Shown in pieces: positions 5,629-43,610 of a stretch of DNA of 64,000 nt; the first letter of the stretch is position 1; each line of letters starts with the position of its first letter. Made by a program: the position numbers and the translations under genes. The notes beneath the pieces are model-generated. The model did no database searches. It saw only the letters and a list, made by a program, of their open reading frames with translations, and was not told the origin of the DNA. Origin of the DNA: Polytrichum commune (lineage: Eukaryota; Streptophyta; Polytrichopsida; Polytrichales; Polytrichaceae); assembly GCA_950295325.1 (NCBI GenBank), contig OX485803.1, positions 74,603,554 through 74,667,553 on the forward strand. Reading direction: 5' to 3'.

Positions 5629-5629
5629 G

Positions 5630-6566
5630 TTTTTTTATCATGTTTAAGGACATATTCACCAAGGTGCCGAATGGGGCCTTTGTTTGGCGTTTCTTGCATT
5701 GAGTGCCACCAATCTTTTTGGAGGTAGTATGGTGTAGGGTGTGCATGTTCGTATGTTGCTATGGCGTCTCTATGGTCTAGTTCACAACCCAATTTGGCTA
5801 GTGTGTTGGCTTGTACGTTACCATTTATGATCGTGTGGGCTTTGACTTTATGAAGTGTGGTGGTTTGTGTGCGGGATTGTAGCATTTTAATCATAGGTTC
5901 AAGTATATGTCTATATGGGTGACTGTTATGGAGGGCTGGGTGTTTGATTTGTGTATTTAGTAGGCATAGGACATTGAGGCAGTTTGTGAAGATATGTGCA
6001 GGTTCATCACGATATGTAGTGTTGAGGAGATGGAGGGTGTGGTGTATAGCCATCATTTCTGCTCGCAATATGTTTTATAAGCCCGGTAGCCTTTCTGCAA
6101 TCCTGAGATTCTTGAAGGGGTTGTATATGCCATATCCTACCTTTTTCTCGTTTCAAATGTCCTTGGGCTGTTTCTTTAGGCAATTTGAATGGCCCGTCTA
6201 TATAATAACAAAATTGGGGTTGGTATTTGAGGGGTAGACATCTATCTAGGTTTGTGATTAGTGGGGTATCAATGGTTTGGGTGATAGGTGGGTGGGGTGG
6301 GGGGGGGGGGTATATGAGTTTAGACCATGTCGTATTACAGTTTACTGGGTTGTTTATTCATGTAGGTGGTGTAATTTTGGTGAACATTGCTAGTATTTGT
6401 AGGATGTTAGCAATGACGTCCATTTGGTGGGTATATTCCCTTGATCCAACGGGTGAAGTCTTGTGGTGTATGCATAATATACGGATGGCAAGACTTTTTG
6501 TTCTTGGTTTAATTCGTAATTCTGGTGGTATTGTTGGTTCGTCGTATATGATGGTATGAACCTTGA
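5630..6566 (-). mobile_element. LINE copy A, RNase H part (truncated)
   Basis: The minus strand of 5630-6068 encodes an RNase H-like domain. Frame positions include R-A-E-M-M-A-I-H (second acidic residue) and K-V-K-A-H-T-I-I-N-G-N (catalytic His region). In place of the expected Asp before C-L-N is an Asn (T-N-C-L-N), so the copy is probably dead. The segment 6070-6566 matches 23690-24055 of copy C almost base for base and includes a G-homopolymer expansion near 6300. Copy A is truncated at both ends: reverse transcriptase and 3' tail are missing. It lies head-to-head with copy B. Confidence 0.8.
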
Positions 6567-14930: not shown

Positions 14931-15325
14931 AAAAATATTTTCCAACCTCACATCATACCACTCAACCTAGCCCCTAACCTGAAACTAAAAAATATATACA
15001 CTTTCCAACCTCACATCAGACCACTCAATCAAGCCCCTTAACCTGAAACCAAAAAATAACCATATTTTCCAACCACACATCAGACCACTCAACCTAGCCC
15101 CTAACATGAAACCAGAAAATATATACATTTTCCAACCTCACATCAGAACACTCAATCAAGCCCACTTAACTTGAAACCGAGAATATAAAAACATTTTCCA
15201 ACCTCCCATCATACCACTAAACCTAGTCCCAAAATTGAAACCAAAAAATAAAAACATTTTCCAACCTCACATCAGACCACTCAACCTAGCCCCTAAACCG
15301 CAAACCAGAATATAAACTCATTTAC
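14931..15325. repeat. minisatellite, continuation after the LTR
   Basis: The same ~64-bp unit as at 12.2-14.0 kb, here with more 'acctcacatcagaccactcaatcaagcccc' variants. It ends at about 15325. Confidence 0.9.
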
Positions 15326-17988: not shown

Positions 17989-20900
17989 TTTAGATTCCAC
18001 CCAGACTCAATTCATGTCGAGGAAGAAGTCTCTAATGCTAACGGTGACTTGAGTCACACTATCCTTCATATATCATTTCGCAATGACGATGGTAGAGTTT
18101 GGTTCTTGCTCCCTGGAACGTACAAGGCCATAGGCGTCACCGAGTCGGATATGGCCACCACAACTGTGTTGCTAACACCAGGTGTGTCCCTTACGTCCAC
18201 CACGCAGGTTCCTCTTCTCGCGACGGTCAAGAAGGAGCCCGGCATCGAAGAGGTTACCTTGCTCAGTGACTCAAATGATGATCTGCCACCTGCCTCTGAC
18301 GTTGCCTCACTTACCCCACCTCCATCGCAAGATCAACCCTTCATCAATCCTCTAAGGATTCCACAGTCGCCTATTGTAAGTCAACCATCTACTTTCAGAC
18401 CCCCAGTTCACCCAGGTGTTTCTAAAGATCGTCCGAGTGTTGTCCACCACTTGAAGTTGCTTGCAACCCGACCAGGGTCCAAGAACATACTCAAGAAGAT
18501 TGATTATGAATCTGTTAGGCATGAGAAGGTTGACTACCTCCCATCCGTTTTTGACGGCGACGTCATCTTTGAATTCCCTCCTCTCGGAGCTGATGCTCCC
18601 CATTCCCATGCTAAATTCATGTTCGGAATGGACAAGCGTTTCGACGGTCATGCTTGGTGTAGGACAAAGACGTCTAATATTACCAATGATCTCGGCTTCA
18701 CCTTCCGGTCCTCATGTTGTGTTGGCCATCTCCATTGTGATAACAAGGGATGTGATTATCTCAACCGCCCCAATCGAGCCACTGACGTCAACGAGACCGA
18801 ATGGGAAGGCTGTACCGCCTCACCCTACTCCGTAGGAGCTGATCCCCCATTTGGGTCATCTCTCGTTTGTAAGGTTTGTAAGACACCACCCTATTGTCTT
18901 GATACTTGCCAAGCTAAGATGTACTATGTTCTTGGCAAAGGTGACATGACCCGTGCATGCATCCATATGGGTCATCACCATCACCCCGTTTCGCAAGGTG
19001 TATGTAGAGAGTCTAAGGTCGAAATTCATGATCTCATTGGTAGAGAGGTTGAGAGGACTCCCACCGCCACCAACTCTGCGATTGCTTTGGCTGCAAGTAA
19101 AGAGTTCCTTGCCAAGTATCTTCTACGCACGGGTGATGATCCCAATAAAGTTATGGACCTTGAGTCCATGAAGTTTGTCATGGACAGGTACCAACACCTC
19201 AGCACCCCTAGTATTCGAAACACAGTCACTTCCTTCAAGCGCATTGGGCGAGGGGGGATCATTGACAGCATCACCGGACTCAGAGGTCATAGCAGTTGGC
19301 CCTATGTGCAAGAAAACAAATTCCCAGGCCAAGGAAAACTGTTGGAGAAAGTCTATGTATTCAAGATGTCCGAGGTGGGCCCTAGGTCTGGAGTTGACCT
19401 TGTCAGGAGAATGCAACCACACGGTGATTTGTAGGATGCTTGGGTCATGTTTGACCATGTCAAGCGTGTCAAGGGGTGGACAACCATGGCTTGCCATGTC
19501 TATGACTCGGCCTACTGCCGGGTTTTGACTATTGCAGTATGTGATATCTGAGGATGTCACGGCGCAGAGCCTTCTTTGGCATGGGCTCAATGAAGTTATG
19601 CACAGACATGGCATTGCTAAAGTTAACTTCAAAGGGTTCATGGCGGACAGTGCACAAGCCAATTGGAATGCAGTTAGGATTATCTATGGCAGTGGTGATC
19701 CCAAGGTTCTTATGGAGTCTCGCGAGAGGACATGTCTATTGCATTGGACAGTGTCTATGGAGCGCCACACCGCCACCCACATCAAGCCCGACCTCCAACA
19801 ACAACACAAGTTGTTATGCAAGCAGTACAAGGATGCCAAGACTCCTGAGCAGTCCGAGTCCCGTTATCTTGCCATCCGGGCTTGGTGGCTTTCCTCTGGA
19901 GCTGCATCCAAGGAAGGAATCAAGGACCTTGATACATGGCTTGCATTTTGGCACTTTCGTTACCGTCAATGGGGTGGTTTCATGCAACTAGTGAGTGTAC
20001 CATCCACTTTCTATTTCGCTTTTTGGTGTCAATATTTTTTTTGCCTATTAAGCCTCTTTTGTCATATGTTGTACATCTCCATAATACCAATATCAGTTTA
20101 GGCTTTTAGCCAAATTTTGTGCAAAGCGTACACACTACATTTTATTGATTTCTCTCATAATTTCACAGATTCCGAGTTGGTGGAGATGCCATCTTGCAAC
20201 CTCTCTGAGACAGTCCACAACAAATGGCTTCAGCAGTCTGGAAACCGTGGCTCTGATCTATATGTTGCCACCGTGGATGATTTCGTGAGGGCGTTCATGC
20301 AATGTACTAACTACTACGCCTACTTGAAGGGTGATCGCTCTAGTACTGGCCTAGGAAAAGAAGAACTCCGCCTTCGTGCTGCACAACGATCCGGTGACGC
20401 CAAGAGAATTGTTGCAGCCCTCGAGCACATGCTTGGAGCAGAGCATTGGTGCACCCGCAAACCCCAACTCGAAGGAGAGGAGGTCTTTGGCACCACCAAG
20501 CGCAAACTTGATATGCCCCCTGGTTCTGATAAGGATTCACATAGACTTGACAAGGTCAGCTTCTCTCATCCACGAGTGAGCACTAGGTCAACCAAGGCCC
20601 GTACTGATTCCGCCACACCATCAACCCTGCCCCTAACACAATCACCCGAGAAAGCGATTCCACAACGGGTCACCCACGTCAATAACATTCAGGAGACCCA
20701 CTGCGATGTCTCCAAGTGGCACATTTCTAGACTGCCCAAGACTTCCGCCAAGGCCTGCTTCGCCATGCAAGCTCGCACAAAGACCAAGTGCACCCAGAAG
20801 AATGTTCGGCATGGTAAAAATACTCCAGCTCCTACGTACACTGGCTACATGCGCGACTACAAGAAGAACAAGGAATTCTTGACACAGTTCTTCTTCTGCA

Positions 20901-24900: not shown

Positions 24901-25431
24901 AACACTATATTCGTTAAATTGAGACTTTCTCTAGTCTCAAATTAATATATGGATCAAACAACATTCCGTGTTCCGAAACTATATTGCGAACAATCTCAAA
25001 TATATTATATGTTCTAATATCCCAAATCTATGGGGTGTGGACATAAGCACATATGGTAGAGCACTGAACACCAACTTCATCAACAAAAACACTTTGGGTA
25101 GAGCACTCCAAACTAGTTTCACCCAAGAAACATATAAAATGATTTTCATTATTAGCATGGTCAATAAAATATAGACATTGCAACATACAAAGTACATGCA
25201 ATAAATGCATTTTTCTTCAATGGAAAATTTAGTCCCAAACTTAATAAAAAAATGAACTTCACAACTGTATTGAAATATAGTAAATGGATATTCATCCAAC
25301 CCCAAACAATATAGCATTCGCAAGTTCTACCCAAACTTTGCCCCAAGTTTGAGGAGCACACATATGAGTAATATATATTCGTCGAATTACATATTACACT
25401 ATAATCATGCTAACACAATCCTACCAACTTC
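24901..25431. other. no gene recognised
   Basis: AT-rich spacer. It carries a doublet of 'ggtagagcact' ~45 bases apart (25058 and 25101) and lies downstream of the DUF7869-type gene; it may hold its 3' UTR. Confidence 0.4.
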
Positions 25432-28400
25432 TCATTCAACGTGGGTTGCTTCTTCTGCGATCCGAGCAAGGTTGTCTTTTGCAAAAGTTATGTACTTTTG
25501 AGGGATGGACACTGATCCACTATGATTTTTCCGTGGTTTCCATGCTATGAATATGGAATCTGTATCTACCCAAGATGGACCGTGCTCAGAATCCACCTTC
25601 CACCGAAAGTTAGGGTTTGTATCCCAGCCTGTATAATGCCGAACAACATCTTCATTCCGTGCTGTCGGTCGGTAGTACTCTACTTGTATTTGTCGAAAAT
25701 GAGGGCTGGAAGTTACAAAATTTGGTTTGGACAAAGCTCTTGCCACCCATACTGGCTTTGCATAGGTCTCATCTCCAGGACGCAAAATGAGCATATAACC
25801 TTCATGACAATCCACTGCAATGCGGAAAGATGGTGGCGGACGACTACTAGCAGGTCCCACGTAATGGTCGTCCACATCAAACTCCTCTCGAACCTCTCCA
25901 TTTCCCAAAAGACTAGCCTCCGAAACTTGTACGTTGACACGTGTTTGTGGCCAAAACCCATGCCTTAAAGTAAGGGGTGTATCTTGATGAAGGTTTTCCA
26001 AAGCGCCACGAACACGTGTCCAATATTGTATCCAACTTCCATAACGAAGCCAACACGATCCACCAACATCCGCTACCCTCAAACTCTCCCAATATTGTAT
26101 GAAGCCTGATATGCCTTTACAAATGTCCTCCAAATTCTTCATGGGTATTGGTTTGCAAGGCTTAGGCTCTCCGTCAGGCAACATCGTCCTTCCCTCCCCA
26201 TCAACACGCCATACAAGGAGACCCTCCGGCGGGCTCCAGTCTTGTGACGTGCACAACAACTTGTATTGCATGACGGGGACACCATCGTCACGTACGTAGA
26301 ACCGAAATTGTTGTGCCTTCGTATGTCCGATCAATCGGTGAGCTCCGCTTCGAATATACGGTTCTATAAATGCCTTGAAGTCGGGAACCTCCTCGATCAT
26401 ATGGGGGATGATGAGAATGTTCTCCAAATCCATGTACGACTTCATCAACAATGGGATTGTTGGAAAATCCTCCTCGCGCAACTTCATGCTCCAACGCCCA
26501 AAAGATGCATCGATATCGTCGTGCGTGTGGCCTACCAATAGAAAGGACACAAAAACCTCCTTGAAATTGCCTTTCGCAACCAACAACGACCAATATGCAA
26601 AAACATATCTACTTTTATTGTCCTTCGCACAATTGTCCAATTGGACACGTAGAGTTGGGGGCAAATTCTTGGCTATCACATCTTCACTTGGTGGCTCCGG
26701 CAAGGAGTGCACGCATACATCTCTTCCATCCAAGACCGCTTCATATAGAGGTGTTGATCCCGAGTTTTCAAATAACAATCTTGATGAATAGGACGGCGGT
26801 TTCTCCAAATCACGTAAAAGCTTTGCAAATGACCCTATTGTGTGGTTTGAATCCGCCGGATACAAATCAAGAGCATAATGAGCATACTTGACATCACCGT
26901 GTCCATGTGCAATCATCCCTGCAAAGCCAACCCAATGGTTTAATATTCAACTATAACACCAAAAAATTCACATGGTGTACATCTATGGCCCCAAGTACAA
27001 ACCTAAAAGCACAAATTTGTGTTTAGGTAATGCAATGCAATTGTTATCGAAATCACCTGTAACCGATACAGGAAGCTTAAAAAGGCCGTCCGTGGCTTTG
27101 ATTCGATTTGCAAAACATGGTGAGGCTGTTTTGGCATGGTCCATTTTGTCATGGATGATTGTAAGGACCTCCAAAGGCCTAGAGATGGACAAAGCTCTAT
27201 TTGTGTAGTAATCATTACGGTGTGCCTCTTGCATGTTCACATGCTTGAAATAGTTCATTTGATATGCGGCATAGGACTCTGTCCCCATCGTGTGTGCATC
27301 TCGAAGGCGTTTCAACTTCTCGCATTTGGAACAACGGGCAAATTTATCGCCTCGTCTTTTTGTGATGTATTCGCTAAAGTGAGATTTTTTTATTGCACTC
27401 AGTTTCGACAACGAAATAGGGTCCAACCCAGCCTTCTCGCCAACTGCGTTTACGTCCAACAATATGTCTTTCCATTTCGTGCCTGTAGGAAGAACCTTCT
27501 CCACAACCTTTTCACCGGTTGAGAGTGTGCGTGTTTTGTGCGGCATTGCATCGGCAAGGGGGACAATGATGGTTGCCAGAGTGGCTGTTGCTTGTCTCGT
27601 TGCTTCCCTTGGTTTCTTTAAGCCCGTATTCCCATGGTGACGGGACCGGCGTCCTTCCTTGGCATACGCGGCTTGTCTATAAAATTCCGCTTTCGACACA
27701 CCGTGAATGGTGTACCATGCCGTACAACACACGCCTATGCTCTCAAGGGTGATGACCTTTCGACCCGCTCCGTTCACATGTATCGCCCTATGGACATCAA
27801 GCTTTTTGGTGGATCTTAAACGGAAATCTCCAAGCCACATTTCCTCGCGGATGGCCTTCAATTTATCCCTTGGGAACAATTGGCAACAACGATGTACACA
27901 ACAATCCTTTGTGGCAACTTCTCTAATAGACTCCTCACAGAGCAACCTTTGACGTTTACACTCATTTGCAGACGGAGTAGGACGTGCCAATGTATCGTAC
28001 TTCCGTAGGCCTTTACGTGGCCGAATGTTTGCTTGGAGCTCTTGTTGGATTTGGATGTGTCGTCGCTCATGCTCATGCAAATTAACCCTATCAATTGTCA
28101 CATTCCTCAACGGCCACCTTCGCAACGAGAACCTATGAGTTGGATTCACTTCGGAATGTACGAGTGATTCCAATATAACAACTCCAACGTCCTCGGTGCC
28201 AAGGGGGTTTTCATCAATGCAATCTTGTGGATGTGTGTTACGACAAATACCCTCCGCCACAGCAACTCCACTGTCATTAACAAGTACCACATCCAAATTC
28301 ACCCATGAAGCTCGTGAAAGCCCAGCACATTCCACAGTGGGGCAAGAAGGGGCAGATGGCGAAGGACTCCCCAAATGACCTTCATCTGCACTGTCACCAA

Positions 28401-28521
28401 AACTATCCTCCCCGACAATGTCTAGGTCATCCCCAGACGAAGAATGGGAGTTGCCCATGTCTTCAGAGAAGGCATCCCCTCTTCCACCAGCTCCCTCCAT
28501 TTCGCCTACACACATGCACAT
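25432..28521 (-). CDS. DUF7869-type DDE transposase-like protein, two exons
   Basis: Exon 1 runs 28521-27003 and exon 2 26918-25432. The intron has a gtttgtac donor and a ctttgcag acceptor and joins L-L-G to M-I-A-H-G-H-G-D-V-K in phase 1. In-frame ATGs at 28521, 28515 and 28500 are candidate starts; 'gtgtag' just before 28500 could be an acceptor. Together about 1,000 residues. Residues ~1-110 are acidic and disordered. A Cys/His region (~230-300: K-D-C-C-V-H-R-C-C-Q and F-A-R-C-S-K-C) is followed by the nuclease-like core: I-I-H-D-K-M-D-H-A-K, Q-L-D-N-C-A-K-D-N-K and V-G-H-T-H-D-D-I-D. These are the three conserved acidic blocks of the DUF7869 family, seen in algal, fungal and non-seed-plant mobile elements. 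Both exons are fully open, so this may be a recent or functional copy. A tandem inverted-repeat array lies directly upstream. Confidence 0.75.
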
Positions 28522-28689
28522 GAAACCTCAACAAACATGCACACCATGTAAGGGTTCAAAAGAATCAAATATCAAAAAATGCAAGACATCATGATAAATG
28601 GGGACACCGAGGATAAAGACATTTGCAACACAACTACAATGTGAACTCCCAATACTTTGCGCAAGTTCCAAAAAACATTTTGGGAGGGG

Positions 28690-29431
28690 GTTTGGGTCGA
28701 CCGACCCAAACCTTCTCATGGTCAACCTCCAGCCGGCCAAGATGGGGTTGGGGTTTGGGTCGGTCGACCCAAACATTGTATGTCAAGGGGTCGAGGGGTT
28801 TTGGTCAAGCCCGCCCACACTGGTCGAGGGGTTTGGGTCGACCGACCCAAACCTGATCACGGTCAGGCTGAACCCACCCACACTCGTGGAGGGGTTTGGG
28901 TCGACCGACCCAAACCTGGTAAGGGTCAGGTTGAAACCCTCCCACACTAGTGGAGGGGTTTCGGTCGACCGACCCAAACCTGGTAAGGGTCAGGCTGAGA
29001 CCCGCCCACACTAGTGGAGGGGTTTCGGTCGACCGACCCAACCTGGTAAGGGTCAGGCTGAAACCCTCCCACACTAGTGGAGGGGTTTCGGTCGACCGAC
29101 CCAAACCTGGTAAGGGTTAGGCTGAAACCCTCCCACACTAGTGGAGGGGTTTCGGTCGACCGACCCAAACCTGGTTTAGGGTTTAGGGTTAAACCCACCC
29201 ACACTAGTGGATGGGTTTCGGTCGACCGACCCAAACCTGTGTAAGGGTCAGGCTGAAACCCTCCCACACGAGTGGAGGGATTTCGGTCGACCGACCCAAA
29301 CCTGTGTAAGGGTCAGGCTGAAACCCTCCCACACGAGTGGAGGGGTTTGGGTCGACCGACCCAAACCTGTGTAAGGGTCAGGCTGAAACCCACCCACACT
29401 AACGGAGGGGTTTGGGTCGACCGACCCAAAC
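28690..29431. repeat. tandem array of 12 short inverted repeats (~64-bp period)
   Basis: Twelve units, each with a 10-base arm GTTTGGGTCG (or GTTTCGGTCG), two bases, and arm CGACCCAAAC. Starts near 28690, 28753, 28831, 28894, 28958, 29023, 29086, 29150, 29217, 29281, 29346 and 29410. The centre is AC except GT at 28753. Between them lies 'ctggtaagggtcaggctgaaaccctcccacactagtggagggg', which is also conserved, so this is a true tandem repeat. It begins ~170 bp upstream of the DUF7869 gene start. Open frames across it (V-W-V-D-R-P-K, F-G-S-x-D-P-N) are a by-product of the repeat. Confidence 0.95.
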
Positions 29432-29449
29432 CTGATAAGAGTCACACTA

Positions 29450-32140
29450 AAACCCTCAAAATCCGGCGGATAATGCGGCGGACAATCCGAAATCCCATAT
29501 GATTTTGAGCTCATTGCAAAGTTCCCGGTGGGCTTCCATGCTGTGGATAGGTGCTCATGAACTTGCATGCTGTGGATAAGTGGTAATGAACGGCAGCATG
29601 CACGAACCTTGAAGTATAGCTCCGACTAAGAGTTCTCTCTACGAATTCAATAGTGGGAGAAGAGCAAAAAAGGACAGAGTTTTGGGGGGTGCGTCCCTTT
29701 ATACTATCCACCTCCGTTTCTCTGACTTCCTCATTGGATGCCTTTCCCGCCTTGTTCTCCTGCAGCGGTTTTTTCAAACCTCCTGACATAATTCCCCGTT
29801 TTCTGTTTATAGTAGAAAATGCGCATCTATCAATGCCCCTCTCATACCCCAGCTGTCATATGACTTAGTCTATGATATTTAATCTTTTTTTTTTGTCTTG
29901 TGTGGATATGACATACGCCTTTGGGAGGAAGGGTGGCGGCCACATTAATTTTTTCAAGTATCATCAAGGTATATTTTAACCAATATGTAGACCCAAACAC
30001 AACTCCATTCAATGCTTTCAAGTGTAAACCTATTTAGGTGGGGTTTGGGCCATTTGGAGGCTGCAATTATGAGAGAGTTTCCAAGGCTTGAGGCCATTGT
30101 CATGATGAATAGAAATATTTATTTGTCTCCCCTAAACCCTAAACCCTAGAACCTTGCTCTATTATCTCGCATGCAAGAGTGGCAATGACGAACGTGTGTG
30201 GACGTTGTTAAGGGGATACTAACTACCAATGTCCCTTTTTAGTTCAATATTTTAATGTTACTTGAATCCATCCTCAAGTTCACTTCAAGTTTACTAATGT
30301 GTGAGAGCAAAACATCGAAGATTGGACCCTAAACCCTTATAACATCCACAACATGAAATACGCAATGACTAAATACAAAACCAATTAGGATATCATGTTT
30401 AAACGTCCCATATAACATATTAACATGATCAAGATTGTATTTACTATGACCTTCCGATTAGACTCTTCTTCATATTATGCAAACAATATCTGTTATATCT
30501 TCCTCCATTATCTAATACACGTGGAGAGAACAATGAATAACAACATGATGTTGTGCTTCTCCGATTTACTTTTACATCACATTCCATATATTAAATACAT
30601 CATGAACGATGGTTTATTAGCGACTAATATGTGATTCCCTAAAGTGAGCGAAACATCCAAAGTTGGACCCCTAGCCCCTATTAACATCCACAATATTTCA
30701 TGTTATTTGAATAAACACAAGACCAATCAATATATCGCGTTTAAACGTCTCAAATAAACACAATATCGTCTTCACTATAACCTTCCTATAAGACTCTTCT
30801 CACGAGTAAGACAATGTTATACATTGACATTGGATAGATTAATATGTTATAACCCTATCCCCTAAACCCTAAATCCTAAACCCTAAACACCAAAATTTAG
30901 TAGTGGTTCACTGATGCCCCCATATACAAACAACATCTATTTTAAACGTTCTTATTAAGTGTATCAAACACTAACTATCATATTGAGTGTAATTATCATA
31001 TTCATTGTAGTGACACTACAACACTTTCATTGACTAGATAAAACTAAATTGGATATATAGAGTTTGATACACTAAATATGAATGCATACACTAATTACCA
31101 ATATCCCTATGACAATATGTAAGGTTATATCTAAGGGGTTTTATTCTACTTGGAGTCAAACATTGTGGTATAATTCAAACAATATATTGACAAAAGAGGT
31201 GCCAATATTATAAAACCTCATATACTAAAAGTCACTAAATATAATAGTTAATGCAATTATTTAGACCCTCACATGAGGACTTATATTTTGAAAACAAGGA
31301 ATTGATGCCATGACAAAGTTGAATATTTTGGCCAACTTTCAATTTGCGCTAATCAAAAGGACATATGTTGTTTGTAATGTGTGCACACAACATTGCTCCA
31401 TCCTCAAGCATGCAAGTGTGACATTAACCTACGTATGTGGAAGTCATTAATGGAACCATAAATCACAAATGACATTTGTGAGTTCATTCTTTCGTGAATT
31501 AGGATGTTATGATGACAATATACATTTGTATTGAGAACTACAAGCACCAAGGCCCTGTCATTTGACGTGTGTGCCATTCATTTATGGTTTGTGGTGTTTA
31601 GGGTTTAGGCATCATCGAACAAAAAACTGAATGTTTAAATGGCTTCATATGATATGTGAAGTCCATGGGGTTGAAGTAGATACATTTGTTATCATTTTGT
31701 TTCTCCCATGTACTTCAAATTTGAGCTTCTAAGTACATATGTTAATGTTCACTGTAATGCTACTTGTTAGGGTATCCATTGTAGTCTAGAGCTTTGTCCT
31801 CTAACAACAACCATCATAGAAATTAGAATACATAACCCAATACCCTTAACCATGTGAACGGTTACCATATTTATATTATTGCACCGTGTAATTGCCTTTG
31901 AAGATTGCAATATAATTATGAATTACTCCTCTTAGATTTTGTAACACTCTCATATGATTCCATACGACTACATTATTGAAATACCAAAACAAATAATGGC
32001 TACGATGTTATCAATTATCAATTCCAATGGGCGATCATTCAATTCAACACCATTAAAATCAAAGTTGGCGATGGTGTAAATATTGTGCAACACCTTAGTC
32101 TATGTAGCTTTTTGAATGTTTTTGAATTGCCGGTAATGAA
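29450..32140. other. gene-free AT-rich stretch
   Basis: No open frame with a domain and no splice-flanked coding block was found. Short plant-type telomere motifs occur within it (listed separately). Confidence 0.5.
30130..30149. repeat. short interstitial telomere-type repeat
   Basis: Nearly three CCCTAAA units. More degenerate runs occur at 30860-30888 and, in the other orientation, at 29172-29190 and 31598-31610. CCCTAAA is the plant-type telomere unit. The runs are too short for a true telomere. Confidence 0.7.
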
Positions 32141-32147
32141 TACCGGG

Positions 32148-33037
32148 TTAGAATGCCGGGGCCGGGCGGCCAAGAGAGGCGCCGACCCTCCTATGTCCCG
32201 CCCCTAGAGGCAAGGACAATGCCGAAGGCAATGTCCATAGGGTGCCATGTGTCAACACCAGAAGCCGCGCGGGCAACCACCTCCACCAAGGAGGTTTGGA
32301 CACCTGGCAGGGTTTTGGCCCGCGAGGCTTCTGGGCCGTTGATGGGCCCGAGAAATCGCATGGCCAGGATTGTCTGAAGGGGAACCCCTTCGGCTCTCCC
32401 CTTCTCTCCCCTCCTCTTTCTCTCTTTCTCTCTTTCTCTCTTTCCTCTCCCTCCGCGCGAAGCGCCGCCGCTTTCCATAGCGACGCGCCAAGCGATTGTG
32501 AGTTTGTCTTTTCGCATAGCTTCTTGCGCTCATTGGGTATTGCTTGGACGCGCCGCTTCCCGCGAAGCGCCACTTTCCTCTTTGTCTTTCTCTTCACTTC
32601 TTCCTTTGCATTCTTCTTCTCCTCTCTGGTCCTTCGAGTCCTCTTCTAGGATTATAGGCTTATTCTCTCTTCCTGGTTCAGCGTGCACGCATTGAGTGAG
32701 TCCGGATCGCTTTAGTTGAGTGTCATTCATTTCTTATTGTAGAGTGGATGCAGTGAGTGACATCAGAGTTTTGTTGTTGTTGTGGAGTGATTTCAGGTTG
32801 TTATTAGTAGTGATCAGAAGGCTTGCAAGAATCAGGGTGTTTGTGAGAGGGTTTCAGAGTGCTTGTGAGATTCATAGTGATTTTTAGGTGTTTCTGAGTG
32901 TTGATTTTTAGTGATATCACAGAGTTTCTGGATTCTGGATCTAAGAATCAGCTTGTAAGAGCAGCTCACAAGAGTTTCTGGATTCTGGTTATAAGAATCA
33001 GCTTGTAAGAGCAGCTTACAAGAGTTTCAAACACAAG
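32148..33037 (+). promoter_or_regulatory. GC-rich leader / 5' UTR exon of the ParB-methylase-like gene
   Basis: A sharp switch from AT-rich to GC-rich sequence at ~32148 is followed by a pyrimidine tract of CTCTTT repeats (32395-32455), like the Y-patch or CT-rich leader of plant promoters. A 50-bp direct repeat ('agagtttctggattctgg...gtaagagcagct') occurs at 32921-33020. The region ends in 'acacaag' with a gtatat donor at 33038, giving a 682-bp 5' UTR intron that ends in the acceptor immediately before the ATG at 33720. The transcription start itself is not determined. Confidence 0.45.
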
Positions 33038-33222
33038 GTATATCATTTCACTCTACACAATTTGCTTCACTTCCTTTACGATCATGTTTCATATACAATG
33101 CATTGTATATGATATTTAAACATTAAACATGCCTCTGGAAACTAAGTAGTTTCGGGAGGCGACCCAAACCCCAATTTAAAATGTAACGAAACATTTAAAA
33201 TCAGCTTGAAAATTGATTAAAT

Positions 33223-33692
33223 GTTTGGGTCGTTCGACCCAAACCCCAATTCAAAATATAAAAAAACCCTTGAAACCATATTAAGAATTAATAAAATGTT
33301 TGGGTCGAGCGACCCAAACCACAGAGCCTCATGTTTGGGTCGCTCGACCCAAACCTCAATTAAAAAAAAAACTTGAAACCAGATTGAGAATTAATAAAAT
33401 GTTTGGGTCGAGCGACCCAAACCACAGAGCCTCATGTTTGGGTCGATCGACCCAAACCCCAATTTCAAATCTACTGAAACACTAGAAATCAGCTTTAAAA
33501 TTAATGAAATGTTTGGGTCGCTCGACCCAAACACTCTAGCCTCCACATTTAAAGAATACGAGCCACCAAGTGTTCAAGGTTTCGGTCGATCGACCCAAAC
33601 CTTGAATTCGGGCTAGTCAATAAAATACATTTGTTCCATTTCCACCAAATGTTAAATGCATTGTCGACTACTTTGGGTCGATCGACCGAAAC
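33223..33692. repeat. short inverted repeats in the 5' UTR intron
   Basis: Eight copies of the GTTTGGGTCG / CGACCCAAAC repeat start at 33223 (centre TT), 33298 (AG), 33333 (CT), 33401 (AG), 33436 (AT), 33511 (CT), 33579 (AT, one arm mismatch) and 33671 (AT, mismatches). A more decayed copy is at ~33148. Spacing is irregular; AG and CT centres are the same site in opposite orientation. Confidence 0.95.
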
Positions 33693-33719
33693 TAATAGTT
33701 TTAATTTCTGGACTTACAG

Positions 33720-36700
33720 ATGGCCCCCAAGAAGAGACCTGGAGAAAGGTTCTTTATGCTCGCGCCAGACATAATATAGCAGGAATATGAAACCCCCCAG
33801 GACGACTCATACGTGCCCAAGGATGGGCTTGTCCTTGCGTGGTCAGTTCAGGTTGTACAGGGCTCCCAGTTCAAGCTCCTATTCGTGGTAAAAGTAGGGA
33901 CCCACGAGAACCACACTTGGACAACGTTGACAGGATGGGAGGTTGCGTCTGTCCAAGCCCTCGGGAATTACGTGGACGTAATTCTCGAGAACTCCGCCGT
34001 GCACAACGCCCACATGTTCATGCACCAGTTCTCCGAGTCATTCGACACTATATACGCCAAGGAGTCATGCGTGGAGCCTGAAACAATTAAACCGGAGACA
34101 ATTTTCATAGATGGCAATGTAACCAACACGAAGGTTGCAAGTAGGTTTACAAAATTGAAACAGGCCATCACGGTCCTCAACAAGGCGCTGCAAAGTAAAG
34201 CCAAAACGCAGAAGCCTGTGAGGCGTAAGGCAACGGCGGAAGAAGGCGCAGGGTCGTCCAGACCCCAAACTGTGAGGATACCGTGTCCGGTCCCTGCAGA
34301 CTCTAGACGGCCTAGCACTACAGGAACGCCGGCTGACAGCGAGACGCCCACACCGTCCGGAAGCCGGCAGACGACCCCGTCGAAGAGGGCGAGAGACTCC
34401 TCCGTCATGACCACCGAGCCAGTTTCCCCGGAGCTGCGGATGCCAAAACCTGGCCAAGAGGTGGATGCAGGCGAGATACAGAAAATCAATGATAACTTCG
34501 AGACGAAGTGCCTGCATTGCTTCTTCATGGGCAGGGACTTCAAGTTCGAGGTGAACATTGCACAGTGCCACCTTGCGCCACCTGAGAAGTGTGTCCGAGC
34601 CAAGGAGGACGCCTACGTCGACTGGATGGTCGCTCAGATCTTGGGAGGGCAATTCAAAGACGACAGGCAGACAATTGTTGTCATGCCGCAAGGGCTGAAG
34701 AGAATGCCGACGCCTGAAATGTGGCCGACAATATGCAAAGGCGACTTCTGGCTGATTGACGGCCAGCACAGTGTGGAGGCGTCTAAAAAAATTCAGCTGA
34801 TGACCGAGTGGGACGACCCCAACAACCAAAAGGAGAAGCTAAAGGTGTGGAAGGCATTGGTGGTTTGGTCTGACAACGAGACCGTACTAACCGACATCTC
34901 ACGCTTCTTCAACATGGGAAACAAGAAGAGGGCGTACCAGGCATCCTGGATTCGGAACATCATGGCCTCGAGGGAGGTGTGGGAGTTTTACGGCAGGCCT
35001 CCCAAAGAAAAGGAGAATGCTAAAGACAAGAACCCAAAATGGGAGGTGAGTATGTTTGGGTCGATCGACCCAAACTCTTGAATTGTTTACCTTTTTTATT
35101 CAGGTTTATAGTTTGGGTCGATCGACCCAAACTCTTGAATTGCTTACCTTTTTTTATTCAGGTTTATAGTTTGGGTCGATCGACCCAAACTGTAACATTG
35201 CTTACTTTTTCTCGTGAGGTTTATAGTTTGGGTCGATCGACCCAAACTATAACATTGTTTACTTTTTCTCGTCATGTTTATAGTTTGGGTCGATCGACCC
35301 AAACTGTAACATTGCTTATTTTTTCTCGTGAGGTTTATAGTTTGGGTCGATCGACCCAAACTCTTGCATTCGCAGTTTTCTCACGTGTGTTATTTACTTC
35401 ATGTGCAGGACTTCAAATACCAGATGATCAACAAATTCTCCTCGATTGACAACGCTTCCCATAAGCAGAAGAAGTACAACGAGCTAAGAGGAGAAATTTA
35501 TTTGATCACAGCGTCTGACTCCGTGTGGGGGAGATGGAAGAGTGTTTTCGAGAAACACGAGATGGGGGACCTCATGGATCCCGACACCGGCATGCTCTTC
35601 AATCAGACTGCGCGCTTCAAGCAGATGAAGCCTTTGGTGAGGGAGTTCTTCAGGGCTCTTCAAGGTCTCTCGGAGACAGAGATGGGAAAGGCGGCGTCCC
35701 ACATCCTTCACGTGCAGCCGACGGCGAAGAGATGTTGGGTCCACCCGAAGATCGTCTTCATCAAGCCCAAAATCTTCGTCCCTTCATGCTACACCATGAA
35801 GGAATAGACGGAGAATAGGAAAAAGAAGACGACCATCGTCCAGGAGCTGCACAAGCTGGTGCCGGAAAGGAAACTCATAGTGGATGGAAAGGTCGACGAG
35901 GCGCACTGGAGGGCATTCAAAGCCGACTACAAGTTCACCAGTGCGTCAATGGCGGCACTCATTAGGGAGGCGGGAGACGACTTCCTGAAGTCCAAGCTTG
36001 TGAAGGGGGGGAGGAATCGAGCGCTTCCCGAATACTCCGCGCGTGCCTTCTCCAACTTTATAAAGGAGAAGAAGATCGTCAGCTTCGAGGGCGACGCCTA
36101 CTTCAACTTGGTCACCCTCGAGCCTCTCAAGATCCAAGGATGGCCGGGCTCTGATGCCAGGAAGGCTATCAGGACAAAAGCCGGGGACCGCTTCCCCTTC
36201 GGAATGATAGACTTCAGGAACATCCCTGGAGCCTCATTCGAGGGGACAATGAGCACCCCATTCTACGAGCCGTTCTTCACGAAGTTTGTGGATTACGGCA
36301 GCCCCAAATTCAGGGAGGTCGACGTCTGGCTGTGGATTGTCGAGGACAGGAGGGCAGAGCAGGTGTACGAGATCGTGCGGAAATTGCAGCCAGAGTACGC
36401 CGTCTCAAAATCTCACTACGTTGCTGTACCGGCGGAGGGGGCGTACAACACGCTGAAAGACAAGAAGACGAAGATCGTCAACGTGCTGTGCTTGTACTTC
36501 GTGTACAAAGCTGAGTTGCTTAAGGTGCCAAACCATCCCATAGCCAGGATGGAGAAGTTCTTCCAAGTCCAAGAAGGGTTGGGCACCAGCAGGAGCTTGT
36601 ACGACGAGGCGAAGTACGCCAACTACCCCGCGGATGAGCTGCGCATGGAGTTTTACCTGCGGATGATGAGGACCCTCACGAAGAGAGGGGACTGCATCTT

Positions 36701-39700
36701 CAACGTCTTCGGGGGCTCCAAACCGGTTTTCGCAGCCATGGTAAGCAAATAACCTGAAGGAACTATATGGACGGTTTGGGTCGAGCGACCCAAACTAGGG
36801 CATGCATGGTTTGGGTCGCTCGACCCAAACTAGGGGCACGGTCTGTTTGGGTCGAGCGATCCAAACTAGGGCATGCATGGTTTGGGTCGCTCGACCCAAA
36901 CTAGGGCATGCACAGTTTGGGTCGAGCGACCCAAACTAACTATTCTTATTTTGTTTTGGATGTCACTTTCCATTATTTGTTCATTTGGTGATACTAATAG
37001 TATTGATTCTGATTGTGCAGATGTCTGGGTTGAACATCTACTCCTATGTGGAGGATGCCGATGTTCAATTCTACAGGACCCAGAAGGCGCTGGCCAAGAG
37101 AATGGACATCCTCGACTGGATACCCGGATCCTACGTCGAAGAGATCGTCGAGGGGGGCGAGAATCCTTTGGATATGGCGAGGCGAATCAACCCGGGTGAA
37201 TTCGCCATGCGAGCCCCCGTTCAATTGCCAGAGCCGCTCATCGGGTTGCATCCGGGCAATCCCTCTATGGGAGCAGGTGGCGAGGTTGCGGAGGAGGGGG
37301 AGGAAGAGGAGGAGGAGGAGGAAGCAGAGAAAGTGGAGGGGGAGGTGGAGGAAGGGGCAACAGGATTCACTCAAGAATCCGAGGCCCCTCAGCGGAAGAA
37401 GGCCATGCGGGCTGCAACGCCCCAGAGCAAGCTAGTACCCGTCCTAACGGTGGCCGACGCGAAGGACATGTATTCGAGGGACGCGACGGCCACCTTCAGG
37501 GAGCGGCGAATGCTGAAGGGGAAGAAATTATACAGCGACTATGCGGTGGAGGAGACGATCGCCATAAGCTCCGAGGACGAGGATGACATGGAGCTCGCGA
37601 AGAGGCTGAGGTCGGATCCTGCCTCCCCCACAGCGTTCGCCGGGATGGTGAGGGTGAAACCCGAGGTCCTCACCGTGGAGGAGGCCAACGCGAAGATGCT
37701 CCGGGACGAGGAGCAACGCGTCCGATTGCAGAAGGCCGCCGCCGAGGAGCCCTCGGTCCGCAACGAAGTCGCGGAGTTGAGGGCTCTCCTGTTGGAGCAG
37801 GAGCGGCAAAGGGCGATGGCCCCACCTCCGTCCCAAGCGGACCTGATCACGCAAGTGATCCAGGGCATGCTAGCGCAGGGATTGGTGATGGCTCCCCCGA
37901 GTTCATTCCCTCACTTGCCCGCAGGCTTCCCTCCACAGGATATCCGCCCGCGGCTGGCGCCGCAGCAGTCCTTCAGCTTCGCGCATTTGCTGCAGCCGTA
38001 CGCCCGCCCTTACGCGCCCGTCCAGCAAGTGGACGACCCCAACCTTTGGCGCGTCCCCGGAGCTTCCAGCCCGTTGGCACCCCCGCCGCTCCGGCCTCCC
38101 ATCCTCTTGCCCCCACACCACCAGCGGGACGACCCCCACATGTTTGGGTCGTCCGACCCAAACAGTGCCGACGTTGCAGCGTCCCAGAGCGACGCTCGCC
38201 AACCAGCAGGGTTTGGGTCGGCCGACCCAAACCCCGTCCCCGACCAGACCCCGGTGGACGAGCCCATGTTAGACGTTGAAGGCCCGCAAGGGCCTGGTGA
38301 TACCTCTACTCCTAACCCAGTCGATGAACCAATGCATGATGCGCATGCGGAGGTTGGGTTGGGACAAAGGCCTGACAGTCAGCCTTTGCAGGAGCAGGTT
38401 GCGGCTGACGTCGTCGTCAGAGGCGGCGGTGACAGAGGTGGGGCAGCGCACGCGGTGACGGCATCCACGTCGTCGAGGCACGACCAAGGCGAGGTAATGC
38501 ACTGACCCCACTCAGTTTGGGTCGGTCGACCCAAACTCCATGGGTCTTTGTCTTCTTGCCTTGGTCGTGTCCCCTAACTACCCTAAACTCACGGACACGT
38601 CGCCCCCCCGGCACTCGCGCCCTTCGCCACTTCCCCCCGACCATTCGTTCGTCCACATACCCCCCGGCTTGCGACGAAGTCTTCATCACGGCGGCCCGTC
38701 TCTTCAATTTTTGCTAGATGTAGAAGTAGGCTAGTTTGAACGCATCGTTCAACGCGGCTCCCCCCAATCAAGATGTACATAGAGCATTGTATACAATATA
38801 ATCACCATTTTTTACTCCTATATACTCGTATCCTGTGTTTGAATGTATGTTGTATGCTCTTGCCTCTCTTGTGTCCCTTGTTGCACCCCCTCCAAAATGA
38901 ATCAAATGGTTTTGTGTTTGCACCGAGAACACTCGTTTCTTTAATGCTTCGTTTGGACATAGCATGACATAAGTCGCCCACCGTTTTCTCTCGATCGTAT
39001 CCGCAGAGCTCGGAGCATAGCGTAGCGGCTCCCCGACGCTCTTCTCCAAGGAGCAGAGAGGGCAGCGCGGCGGCGCCCCCGATTTTACCCGCCCCGCCCC
39101 CGCGGCCGAAGAAACGATTCCTGGTGTTAGACCTGAACGGGGTCCTCGTCCAATGCGTTCATTGCCCGAGGACCCCCACGGTGCCCTTTTGCAAGCCCGA
39201 GGACGCGAATTACGACGGCCCGCCCACGTTCATAAAGAGCAAGCTAGTTCACCTCCGCCCGTGGCTTCGGACCTTCCTCCAGATGGCCCAACAACGATGG
39301 TGGGTGGTCGTTTGGAGCTCCATGACGGCCAAGAACACCAATGCCGTTGTGGAGTTCATCTTCAAGGGCATCGAGCCCCCGTGCATGGTCCTAGCACAGG
39401 AAGCCTGTAGAATATTGTACACACCGGACGGCAAAGTCGTCAAAAAACCAAACAACCCCGCTTCCCCCCAATACCTCAAGGTTTTGAAGCCCATTTTTTG
39501 GGACCAACGACCGTCCTTGATAGGCGTCCCCTACGACGTCCGTCCCACCCGGGAGAACACGCTCATGATCGACGACAGCGCCGCAAAGAACATGTTGAAC
39601 CCAACGGCCAACCTCATAGTTTGCCCTACCTGGACGGTCGAGAAGGTCTGGGACCGATTTTTGTTAGACCTTGGTAAATACCTCCAGGCGCTCTGCGGAA

Positions 39701-39819
39701 GCGGACTGCCCGTAAACAATTTTGTTAGGAACAATCCGATAGGCGAGAGATACTTGGATCCACGAGACCATTTGTACAGAGAGTTGTTATCTCACGCGAA
39801 ATTTAACAAGCTCATTTGA
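33720..39819 (+). CDS. ParB/DGQH-like + DNA-methylase-like + FCP1-like HAD fusion protein
   Basis: Predicted exons: 33720-35045, 35409-36740, 37021-38493, 39007-39819. All introns are phase 0 with GT-AG ends, ~1,650 codons. ATG sits directly on the acceptor at 33720. Exon 1: Pro/Ser-rich linker, then D-F-W-L-I-D-G-Q-H-S-V-E-A-S-K (ParB/DGQH motif). Exon 2 ends with R-G-D-C-I-F-N-V-F-G-G-S-K-P, and exon 3 begins M-S-G-L-N-I-Y-S-Y-V-E-D. Together these match the DPFxGSGT...GRNxxGIE region of permuted DNA methylases, with Asp-Pro changed to Asn-Val. The rest of exon 3 is acidic and Pro-rich. Exon 4 is an FCP1/NIF-like HAD domain: F-L-V-L-D-L-N-G-V-L (second Asp replaced by Asn), V-V-W-S-S-M-T, L-M-I-D-D-S-A-A-K-N. 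It has no ATG of its own. Two in-frame TAGs (33777-33779, 35805-35807) break the frame. ParB plus methylase is a known phage/bacterial pairing; the HAD fusion is my inference. Confidence 0.55.
35054..35361. repeat. six regularly spaced inverted repeats filling one intron
   Basis: Copies start at 35054, 35111, 35169, 35226, 35283 and 35340, spaced 57-58 bases, and all have the perfect centre AT, making each a perfect 22-bp palindrome. The spacers read 'tcttgaattgcttaccttttttattcaggtttata' or 'tgtaacattgcttactttttctcgtgaggtttata'. The array occupies almost the whole intron 35046-35408. Confidence 0.97.
36774..36936. repeat. five inverted repeats with alternating centres in an intron
   Basis: Copies start at 36774 (AG), 36809 (CT), 36845 (AG, one arm mismatch), 36880 (CT) and 36915 (AG), spaced 35-36 bases by 'tagggcatgcat'-type spacers that are themselves palindromic (GCATGC). 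Because AG and CT are reverse complements, the sites alternate in orientation. They lie in the intron 36741-37020. Confidence 0.95.
38142..38232. repeat. two inverted repeats inside coding sequence
   Basis: 38142-38163 (centre TC) and 38211-38232 (centre GC) lie in exon 3 of the ParB-methylase-like gene and are translated as F-G-S-S-D-P-N and F-G-S-A-D-P-N in its Pro-rich tail. The insert keeps frame. A further copy with centre GT lies at 38515-38536 in the following intron. Confidence 0.95.
38494..39006 (+). other. intron between methylase-like and HAD exons
   Basis: Donor gag|gtaatg at 38494 and acceptor tatccgcag at 39006, phase 0. The unspliced frame ends at TGA (38503-38505), so an alternative reading is that the upstream gene ends there and the HAD domain belongs to a separate gene. 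Against this, the HAD exon has an open frame from the acceptor but no ATG before its first motif. Confidence 0.5.
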
Positions 39820-39834
39820 GACACTACGTGTGTT

Positions 39835-39860
39835 TGTATGTGTATGTATGTATGTATGTA

Positions 39861-39899
<39 letters not shown>

Positions 39900-39900
39900 A
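39835..39900. repeat. (TATG)n(TG)n microsatellite
   Basis: Runs of GTATGTAT and then GTGTGT, just after the TGA that closes the HAD exon. Confidence 0.95.
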
Positions 39901-40008
39901 CGCGCCCGTTCATTTTGTGTAATATATGCTTCATATGTATCTTGATTTTCACGCGCTCTAGCAAACCCTCCTCCCTTGGGTTTTGTTTCGTTTCCTTTTT
40001 TGCGCCAG

Positions 40009-40809
40009 CGTTTGGAGCCCTCGATTGACATCGTCAGCGAGTCGGACTTGGGGAGCTTCTTCTACGAGACCGTCTACGACACCGCGTCGACCATTGACTA
40101 CTCCAAGGAGCCTCTTGACGCCGGCGTCGTCGATAGCCCCCCACCCAAGCAAATCTTCCGGCATTCTCCGTCCCCGTCGCCGCTCAAGGGCATAAATCGC
40201 AAATGCGTCCGGACATCCCCCTCTCCGCCCGGCGGCAGTAGTACACCTCAACGGCGGCTGCGGATGGACGCTCGGCCAACGAAGAGTGGAACCCTTCCTA
40301 TTCCTTTGCGGGACGCATTGCCCCTCCTCGCCGACTCCGACGGGAACGCCCCCGGTGACAAGGTGAACCCCCCCCCCCAAACCTGGTTAACCGCGCATTA
40401 CAATCATTTTGCACTTAAAAAATGAACGTGTGACACGTTTGGGTCTTCCTCCCTAAACTAACACATGTGGTCTTGCATTGACGCGTTGCAGGTTGCTCCC
40501 ACCCGTAAACCTATGCGGTCTAGTGCGTCCATCGAGTTCGAGCGTATGTACGCCATGACCAGAAATGCGAGACAATCCACTTCATCGTATTCGAATTCTT
40601 CGACGTATATTTCGGGCGGCCGACGGACTCCAAAATGTGTTATGGATGGCGGTCACCCCAAGAATGGCTATAGTCGCGGGGCGGAGATTTTCAGGAATGT
40701 TGAAGCAATGCGAGCAAAAGAAGCTGCAGCAAAAGAAAAAGAGGCAAAAGAAAAAGAGGCAAAAGAAAATGAAGCAAAAGAAAAAGAGGTAGTATCCGAG
40801 GCTAGATAG
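40009..40809 (+). CDS. two further phase-0 exons, Ser/Pro-rich and Lys/Glu-rich
   Basis: 40009-40362 (acceptor gcgccag, donor aag|gtgaac) and 40492-40809 (acceptor gcgttgcag, TAG at 40807) are both open, GC-rich and whole-codon in length, like the exons upstream. The first encodes an acidic then Ser/Pro-rich segment (S-P-S-P-S-P-L-K), the second a basic segment with R-S-S-A-S-I-E-F-E-R-M-Y-A-M-T-R and a tail of A-K-E-K-E repeats, probably a charged helix. No fold recognised. They are either 3' exons of the preceding gene (requiring that TGA at 39817 is a mutated codon or is skipped by splicing) or a separate small gene whose first exon I could not find. Confidence 0.4.
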
Positions 40810-40984
40810 GCCATAGTAGGCGTAGGGTTTTGGGCCATAGGCAAGAACATTTTGGGTCGCACTATCCAATGGATGTGTGGTGTTAGCATGATATGCATTT
40901 TACATACCACACTTTGTATGTTTTTTTTTGCAATAATATAAGTTAGACATGATTTCCCCTTCCATATGGTCTAAGGTTTGGAGT

Positions 40985-41335
40985 GCCTTATTGTGTGCAT
41001 TAATATGAATGTTTTAAGATTTCCCCTTCAATAAGATCTATGGTTTGGAGTGCCCTACCTAAACCATATTCATACAAGCTCTCATATTTTGTGTGCATTA
41101 ATATGAATGTTTTAAGATTTTCCCTTCAATAAGATCTATGGTTTGGATTGCCCTACCTAAACCATATTCATACAAGCTCTCATATTTTGTGTGCATTAAT
41201 ATGAATGTTTTAAGATTTTCCCTTCAATAAGATCTATGGTTTGGATTGCCCTACCTAAACCATATTCATACAAGCTCTCATATTTTGTGTGCATTAATAT
41301 GAATGTTTTAAGATGTCCCCTTCAATTTGGTCTAA
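40985..41335. repeat. ~98-bp tandem repeat, 3-4 copies
   Basis: 'gtgtgcattaatatgaatgttttaagat' recurs at about 40994, 41091, 41189 and 41287, followed each time by 'ttcccttcaataagatctatggtttgga-tgccctacctaaaccatattcatacaagctctcatatttt'. The middle copies are nearly identical, so the amplification is recent. Confidence 0.95.
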
Positions 41336-41499
41336 GGTTTCGATTGCCCACCCTAAACCATCACAAATATGAGTTATTAATGGGGTTCTTGGTCTAAACA
41401 CCCGCTTCAAAGTGTTCGCATCTTACAACTTTCACCAATATGTGTTCCATTTATCCTTGTTCTTATTTCTATGAATGTCTCAAAATGCCCAAAAAGTCT

Positions 41500-43610
41500 C
41501 AATTTAACGAATATAGTGTTTTTGGTAATATCCATTGACATACGTAGGCCGTGTATGTTTTTGTGATTTTGTTTTTATCTTTGTATGTGCCGGGGTGGTC
41601 TTTTGTTATAGTGTATATGGGGAATTGTGTGTGGTTCTTCAGGATGTGTAGGGGTGGTTTTGGGTGTTCCAGTGATGATGGTGGTGGTGATGGGGGATGT
41701 GTGTTGTGTTCGCGTATTCTCGCATGTATGTTATGGTTTTGTATTTTATATTCATTTTTAAGGTGTTTGGTGCAGTGTGTGTTAAGCATATGTCCGGACA
41801 TTGGTTGTGATATGAGGTTTCACTAAGGAGTACTCTCGCGTGCTCTAAAGCGGTTTTTATTATTTTAGTAGGTGTGTTGTAGTAGTGTTTAAATTCATCA
41901 TTAGTTATTAGATGTGTGCCATTAGGGTGTGTTATGTATTTGAGTTTGGTTATATTGTGTAGTCTTAATTTTTGTAAATAATTTAGGAATAATGTGGGGG
42001 TTAGCGTTGATATATTATTTGCTTGACGCATCCATTGTGTTTCTAATGGTGTGGGTAGGAGGGAAAATTCCTTGAGTGTGCTTATAGGGTGGGTACCACT
42101 AGTTGTTTTGAATAGAAATAGGGTTCATGTGATTGGCGATCTTATGCAATCATGGTGTGATATGCGTGTTAGATTTTGTGCCCCTCCATGTTTGGCGAGT
42201 ACATGTCTTACTAATATGTTATATATTCTTCCGAGTCTACCTTTGTCGTTGAGGGCGTTAATGAGTTGTTCGCTTATACATGTGATGTATGAGTTTTTTG
42301 GTGAGAATATTTTTGTGCCAAACATGTTGTGTGGTAATTGTGTAACCGCACTTGACATACATTTTGGGAGACCACATATAGTTTTGTGTAGGGCAAATAT
42401 TTTTCTATCAAGTTTCTTGATGGCTGAGAGTGAGTATGGAATGGCGTAGAAACTATAGGCGATGCCATCTCGTATGACTGTGTCTACCATTTGTGTTTTT
42501 TGCGTTGCTTCATAGTGGCTAGGCATGTCACTAGTTGCTTACATTGTTTTACTAATTTGGCCGTTGTTATATGCGTTTGCATGTTCCATTATAATGATGA
42601 GACTAGGTTGATTCCAAGGTAGACATATGACTCGTGTTGGCTCGGTGCATATATAGGTTGGTTTCTAAAGTTTATATTTTTGTTATGTAGTTGTGTTTTA
42701 AAGGTTTGTGGACTTAGTTTTGATTTGTTGGGGCAACCCATGATCGCACATTTTGGGATGCCAAGCTTCATTCTTGCCCATGCATAATATTTATCGAGTT
42801 TGTTTAGTTGGTGTTGTAGGGATGTTAATTTATTGGCTAGGGCTGCTAGGTCATCTGCGTAGGCTGTAGAATTTATTTTTGTATTGGTGGTTTTGAAGGA
42901 GTATCTGTTATTTCCTCGTTGTAACCATTTGAGAAATGGTTCGAGAAGAATAATAAAGAGATATGGGCTTAGTGTGTATCTTTTTGTATGGTTCTTCTTT
43001 GTATGAGAATTGGTTGTGTTTTATCGAAGTATTCACCAACAAATGTTATGGTGGATTGTGAGAAAATACTATCTACCAGTGCTACGGCATCTTGTGGATA
43101 ACCAAGGTCTTTCAAAATGGCATAGAGTCTGGCATGGTCAATTGAACCGAATGCATTTTTTAAGTCGATATATAGTATAAAGATATCTTGGTTTGTGAGC
43201 CTAACATCTTCTAGTGCCGAGATGAGGGTTTGTAGTTGTCGCGAGGTGCATGTAGGATTTGGTGTCGTTCCCCATATGCAGAGAGTATACTCGTAAGCAC
43301 GCTAGTGAATGATTTATATATTGTGTTAGCAAGTGTTATTGGTCTATGATTGGTAAGATGATATGGGTTCATTTTTTTGTATAGAAGTATTCTAAGGCTT
43401 CTTTTCCAAGAATCTGGGATTTGTTTTTGTTTATAATAATAGGTGAAGAATAGTAAGAGGAGTGTGTGAAATCATGGTGGCATAGTTTTTAATATAATGT
43501 TGGGGATTTTATCTGGTCTAGGGGTTTTCCCAATAGCCAAGTGTTGAAGGCATATGTTGTATGTTTCTTGATTAAGGTAGGTATAAAGGAGAGTTAGTGG
43601 ATTGTCTTTT
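41500..43610 (-). mobile_element. LINE copy D: reverse transcriptase part
   Basis: On the minus strand, 43430-43290 encodes I-P-D-S-W-K-R-S-L-R-I-L-L-Y-K-K and H-R-P-I-T-L-A-N-T-I-Y-K, the N-terminal RT motifs of LINEs. 43250-43090 encodes Y-I-D-L-K-N-A-F-G-S-I-D-H-A-R-L (palm motif with catalytic Asp). After a frameshift near 43010 comes L-S-P-Y-L-F-I-I-L-L-E-P. 42861-42850 encodes Y-A-D-D, the catalytic core, and ~42625 gives Y-L-G-I. The thumb and linker follow down to ~41500, where the copy ends. The methylase-like, RNase H and endonuclease parts seen in B and C are missing. Several frameshifts make it inactive. Confidence 0.85.

Follow-up and report, generated by a model that had tools for sequence, protein, structure and literature searches.

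The subterminal repeats of CACTA-type elements are read by the elements' own proteins, and the superfamily is marked by terminal inverted repeats (TIRs) that start with CACTA and by a 3-bp target duplication. In bacteria, ParB-parS is a palindromic-site system. In Arabidopsis, the available text of the published accounts describes VANDAL21 as carrying motif arrays in the introns of VANB and VANC and upstream of VANA (PMC5735166). VANC binds these motif arrays and methylation is lost. The motif differs between families, at 9 bp for VANC21 and 8 bp for VANC6, and an unrelated element carries the VANC6 motif too (PMC5735166, PMC10398659). Here we describe a palindrome, GTTTGGGTCG-NN-CGACCCAAAC, in a 64,000-nucleotide stretch of the Polytrichum commune genome (the window). 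It is 22 bp long, with two 10-bp arms around a 2-bp centre.

The first-pass annotation of the window had counted about 35 copies between 28690 and 38536. We found 34 matches at up to 3 mismatches, every one inside that interval, and none in 100 dinucleotide shuffles of the window. The genome-wide search that the same annotation proposed, for the arms with any 2-base centre, returned 9231 exact copies (408 Mb, 64 contigs), while the reversed pattern had no exact match in the genome. Spacing between the arms is rigid: allowing any value from 0 to 8 raised the count to 9235, only 4 beyond the 9231 at spacing 2. Tandem arrays are the setting of most palindromes, and array copy numbers change between element copies. 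Confinement to one tandem satellite, named at the outset as grounds against a special site, was not seen; the tandem units that contain palindromes are unrelated and range from 32 to 79 bp, other palindromes are single-copy, and two transposon families carry them. All seven clusters among the first 100 listed of the 9231 palindromes fall in family 1 or family 2 (six were read as fetched loci, and the seventh was assigned by its layout and a gene B exon).

The limits of the family-1 element in the window (Table 1) were set by comparison with two other palindrome clusters on contig 1. These two copies have 4-bp target duplications as well, AAGT and TTAT. Family 1 has two divergent genes, A and B. 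The gene A exon has at least 85 copies at 97-100% identity (the best 85 of 1868 first-look candidates), and the last exon of gene B has at least 150 at 94-100% identity (the best 150 of 1241 candidates). Subfamily B shares about 77% DNA identity with the window subfamily over much of gene B and 83-86% in protein, and a search with it gave at least 150 matches (the best 150 of 1246 candidates). In the window's copy of gene B exon 1, a frameshift and a stop separate the start from the frame. A Pfam scan of seven element reading frames found only DUF7869 and NIF above the cut-off. Searches of gene B against Pfam, NCBIfam and PDB sequences returned nothing above a curated cut-off or at E below 0.03 except NIF, and no named DNA-binding domain appeared in the profile searches. 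A phosphatase domain of the NIF/FCP1 type is the terminal part of a transposon gene here (window 38968-39819). The observed/expected CpG ratio is 0.85 in the element and 0.55 in the rest of the window; the element could be young or little methylated, and youth alone could be sufficient.

Table 1. Features of the family-1 transposon, in window coordinates.
Feature	Position	Strand	Evidence
Whole DNA transposon, family 1, 16,620 bp, flanking TTTG target duplication	24901..41520		Unit common to window and two copies; TIRs, duplications
5' terminal inverted repeat, 28 bp exact	24901..24928	+	Sequence comparison
3' terminal inverted repeat, 28 bp exact	41493..41520	-	Sequence comparison
Gene A, DUF7869 exon, candidate transposase by inference	25432..26946	-	Pfam PF25273, E 1.5e-40
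Gene A, upstream open frame	26983..28521	-	Open frame; no Pfam family at E up to 1
Array, 12 palindromes, ~64-bp unit, in predicted gene A 5'UTR intron (28506-29607, minus strand)	28690..29431		
8 palindromes in predicted gene B 5'UTR intron (33038-33719)	33223..33692		
Gene B exon 1, D-G-Q-H-S motif	33780..35045	+	Intact frame in copy a
6 palindromes, 57-bp unit, in predicted intron 35046-35408	35054..35361		
Gene B exon 2, one in-frame stop in window copy	35409..36741	+	
5 palindromes, 35-bp unit, in predicted intron 36742-37020	36774..36936		
Gene B exon 3, proline-rich, contains two coding palindromes	37021..38493	+	
Single-copy palindrome in coding DNA, reads F-G-S-x-D-P-N	38142..38163	+	
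Second single-copy palindrome in coding DNA	38211..38232	+	
Single-copy palindrome in predicted intron 38494-39006	38515..38536	+	
Gene B last exon, NIF/FCP1-type phosphatase domain	39007..39819	+	Pfam PF03031, E 8.7e-14

Within the element, 32 of the 34 sites lie in five introns, predicted from GT/AG and frame only, that make up 2.9 kb of its 16.6 kb (18%). Genes A and B each have one of these introns in the 5'UTR, and the remaining three also belong to gene B; the other two sites lie in coding exon 3 of gene B. The limits of the gene A intron and a TATA-like box by it are sequence-based predictions. At up to 3 mismatches, the outermost sites stand 3.8 kb in from one end of the element and 3.0 kb in from the other, and none is within 2.9 kb of either TIR. 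Degenerate sites with 4-5 mismatches occur nearer the 3' end, at 40437 and 41043-41260. A 98-bp tandem repeat near the same end (window 40991-41361) contains degenerate palindrome-like units, also with 4-5 mismatches, that are perhaps decayed sites.

Do the arms outlast their surroundings? We compared three single-copy sites, two in coding exon 3 and one in intron 4, across 43 rows (40 fetched segments, the window and two copies), of which 37 were used, 19 from the window subfamily and 18 from subfamily B. Six rows were dropped (L015, L019, L020, L035, L048 and L051) because the segment there is truncated, replaced or without similarity; L015 and L020 keep the intron-4 site, with one mismatch and exactly, respectively. 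Between the subfamilies, the arms of the three sites differ by 1.1, 1.3 and 1.1% (1.1, 1.4 and 1.1% with the 37 rows realigned alone). Centres differ by 47.7, 50.0 and 87.9% and 40-bp flanks by 44.5, 41.1 and 20.4%, in both alignments. Exact arms are present in 33, 33 and 34 of the 37 rows. The initial impression that the arms are kept while the centre varies, as opposed to equal decay of both, is borne out by this comparison. Moreover, only 1.3% of third codon positions differ between the subfamilies inside the arms, versus 37.6% outside. The constraint is on the DNA, because these positions stay although the peptide F-G-S-x-D-P-N has many possible spellings, of which almost only one is kept. 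Judged from these alignments, the arms are under selection at the DNA level, even within protein-coding DNA. Element copies share ancestry, and therefore we attach no probability to this test.

The central dinucleotide had been described as variable and free. Variable it is, but it is not free. Among 265 sites read in fetched loci (173+50+18+24, at up to 3 mismatches), all 12 centres other than pyrimidine-purine (YR) steps are present, and CA, TG, TA and CG are absent. Genome-wide, 5475 of the 9231 centres are purine-pyrimidine, 3718 are RR or YY (obtained by subtraction) and only 38 are YR, all CA/TG. Of these 38, 26 lie upstream of one of 31 compared gene B end exons, 25 of them at a distance of 10-13 kb, the position of the gene A intron array; the 38 may represent few independent events. 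We read the near absence of YR centres as a sign of indirect readout at the dimer axis. A general ban on YR centres across palindromes was rejected. Since another palindrome, GGTTTCGG-NN-CCGAAACC, has centre TA in 41 of its 267 genomic copies, the avoidance is a rule of GTTTGGGTCG-NN-CGACCCAAAC only. Uniformity of the centre within each array was also claimed; it holds at 35054-35361, where all six are AT, but fails at 33223-33692, where eight sites show four values.

The palindrome clusters whose units are 32 bp long (L005-L008) come from a different transposon, family 2. By eye it appears MULE-like, but the best hint, a SWIM match (E 0.035), does not reach the Pfam cut-off; the other family-2 exons gave weaker matches or none in profile searches. 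At one of these loci, L006, the palindrome lies in two predicted introns, and a divergent accessory gene carries W-D-G-N-H-R. Upstream of a TATA-like box, L006 also has arrays of a second palindrome, CCCTGTGCGTTAACGCACAGGG (4850-5875 of the locus; 444 exact copies genome-wide). Families 1 and 2 have different transposase candidates, and in a tblastn comparison of family-1 frames with L006 the best match apart from the palindrome arrays had E 0.033. Homology of gene B with the family-2 accessory gene is unsupported, as only a D-G-x-H motif is alike (D-G-Q-H-S in gene B). Because the two families share the palindrome without detectable protein similarity, the site and the accessory protein do not simply go together. 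Later accessory exons look methyltransferase-like by eye only; this reading had no library match and was set aside. Another transposon in the window, at 19036-20050, has a transposase that shares 50-60% identity with its family-2 counterpart; in the element's tandem arrays (12218-13979 and 14931-15323, 63-64 bp units) no long palindrome was seen.

Relatives of the family-2 accessory gene, with 43-45% identity, were fetched at four places (L056-L059), none of which has GTTTGGGTCG-NN-CGACCCAAAC at up to 4 mismatches. The relative at L056 adjoins the palindrome GG(T/G)TTCGG-GA-CCGAA(A/C)CC, those at L057 and L058 adjoin GGCATCTCGG-AT-CCGAGATGCC and the one at L059 adjoins a 19-bp palindrome with a 3-bp centre. 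Together with L006, the accessory gene and its ~44% relatives were thus fetched at five loci (L006 and L056-L059), and each of these has a palindrome. Genome-wide, GGCATCTCGG-NN-CCGAGATGCC has 36 copies, all with centre AT, and two clusters of TA-centre GGTTTCGG-NN-CCGAAACC adjoin accessory genes found in the search for relatives. When the palindrome was the sole criterion for picking loci, 5 of 8 fetched pieces contained an accessory gene, compared with 0 of 6 window controls. By centre, it was present in 3 of 3 TA pieces, 2 of 2 GA pieces and 0 of 3 AT pieces, where the gene may lie outside the piece.

What reads the palindrome? Selection on the arms at the DNA level, the rigid 2-bp spacing and the near absence of YR centres favor a palindromic binding site, one of the candidates put forward in the first-pass annotation. 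We consider it somewhat probable that the palindrome is the docking site of a dimeric sequence-specific DNA-binding protein, with VANC-like use by the transposon's own family most likely. This reading is favored by the concentration of sites in introns, the same palindrome in a second family, the other palindromes beside accessory relatives and the likeness to the VANDAL layout. The element's higher CpG ratio agrees with it, although youth could account for that too. Each subunit of the dimer would read one 10-bp arm, and the two central base pairs would not be read by identity, the flexible YR step being excluded by indirect readout. With arrays in first introns near two divergent promoters, which are predicted from sequence, and in later introns, the element would mark its own body. 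A transposon-encoded protein, for which the accessory (gene B) product is the best candidate, would bind the arrays and, once bound, would counter silencing or activate transcription of its own family. We infer the protein binding, the element-encoded reader and the anti-silencing or activating effect alike. However, several results count against a docking site. Gene B is without a named DNA-binding domain and shows no detectable relationship to its family-2 counterpart, the accessory gene, even though the palindrome is common to families 1 and 2; the three AT-centre loci had no accessory gene. No match with 3 or fewer mismatches falls in the intergenic region at ~29.7-33.0 kb, where the promoters are predicted, and at L058 one palindrome is inside the fetched piece and two more are just outside. 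Fold models of the accessory proteins are poor (pLDDT 40.3 and 30.6).

The reader could instead be a host transcription factor whose site both transposon families borrowed for expression. An identical site in two families without detectable protein similarity would fit such a factor, as would arrays in first introns near predicted promoters. However, all seven sampled clusters fall in family 1 or 2, and the accessory-gene relatives adjoin other palindromes; we think a host factor unlikely, though it deserves real weight. Confinement to transposons in the sample examined is also what a role in transposition would produce, with the sites serving transposase or accessory-protein assembly like subterminal repeats. 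Yet the sites with up to 3 mismatches are kilobases inside the ends rather than beside the TIRs, and the two families that carry them have different transposase candidates, so that we regard this role as improbable.

RNA hairpins had been suggested early on and are weakened by our results; as intronic structures, they would affect splicing or the fate of the RNA. The placement of 32 of 34 sites in predicted introns agrees with them, and on the transcript strand of family 1 there is a small lean to wobble pairs (C>T 21 versus G>A 11) that may be signal. However, the spacing of exactly 2 nt is too short for an RNA loop and speaks for duplex DNA. Pair-breaking arm changes outnumber wobble-keeping ones on the same strand (33 versus 21), two sites are in coding exons and a single compensatory pair, in L052, was found among the 265 sites. 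Hairpins thus seem to us quite improbable. The idea of serine-recombinase crossover sites with a free 2-bp core, also raised at the start from the layout of arms and core, is not supported. No recombinase was found among the seven frames scanned with Pfam, the 28-bp TIRs at the element ends do not resemble the palindrome, and the arrays retain tandem sites whose centres are the same; we give it almost no credence. It is equally hard to believe in a neutral satellite whose copies are kept alike by tandem duplication together with gene conversion. Most sites do lie in tandem arrays that vary in number between copies. However, the arms of single-copy sites are preserved despite divergence of the centre and flanks, gene conversion would carry the centre along, and equal divergence of arms and flanks, tested at the single-copy sites, was not seen.

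If a docking site is the right reading, it may extend beyond family 1. Tentatively, and with rather more doubt than conviction, we propose that several transposon families in this one genome have private palindromes of 18-22 bp, most with a 2-bp centre, that are read as dimers by their own accessory proteins (a G-N-H-R family and analogues), each family escaping silencing separately. One palindrome would be common to two families and protected even against synonymous change in coding exons, and together they would form an undescribed class of self-recognition. Among the papers listed in searches on the arm sequences, DUF7869, giant moss transposons and anti-silencing or palindromes, none describes the element. 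If the proposal is true, the escape from silencing that Arabidopsis VANDAL elements achieve through a private motif is matched in transposons of other kinds, which use different proteins and palindromic sites, and transposon self-recognition would look like a general, testable strategy. The genome would then also be a source of several DNA-binding proteins with long, distinct sites.

How does the element compare with described systems? The resemblance to ParB-parS is a likeness of one motif only: in families 2 to 4 a gene carrying a D-G-x-H-R-like motif lies close to a palindrome. The accessory protein has no ParB profile match at E up to 10, and its fold models are poor. Like CACTA elements, family 1 is a DNA transposon with repeated private motifs and a TIR that contains CACTA. 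However, its TIR begins AACACTA, its target duplication is 4 bp in three copies, its sites are intronic rather than subterminal and no named CACTA transposase domain was found. Nor is family 1 a VANDAL: unlike those MULE-type elements it has DUF7869 and a 4-bp duplication, and a Pfam scan of gene B exons found only NIF above the cut-off and no named VANC domain. Its site is a 22-bp palindrome with rigid spacing, unlike the VANDAL motifs, and occurs in coding exons too. Nevertheless, VANDAL/VANC anti-silencing is the closest known mechanism. In both systems a family-private motif is tandemly multiplied in introns or non-coding parts, and the motif also lies upstream of the transposase gene. As far as the available text of the VANDAL accounts goes, related families use different motifs and an unrelated element can share one, as is the case here. 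By analogy, the family-1 element may work likewise.
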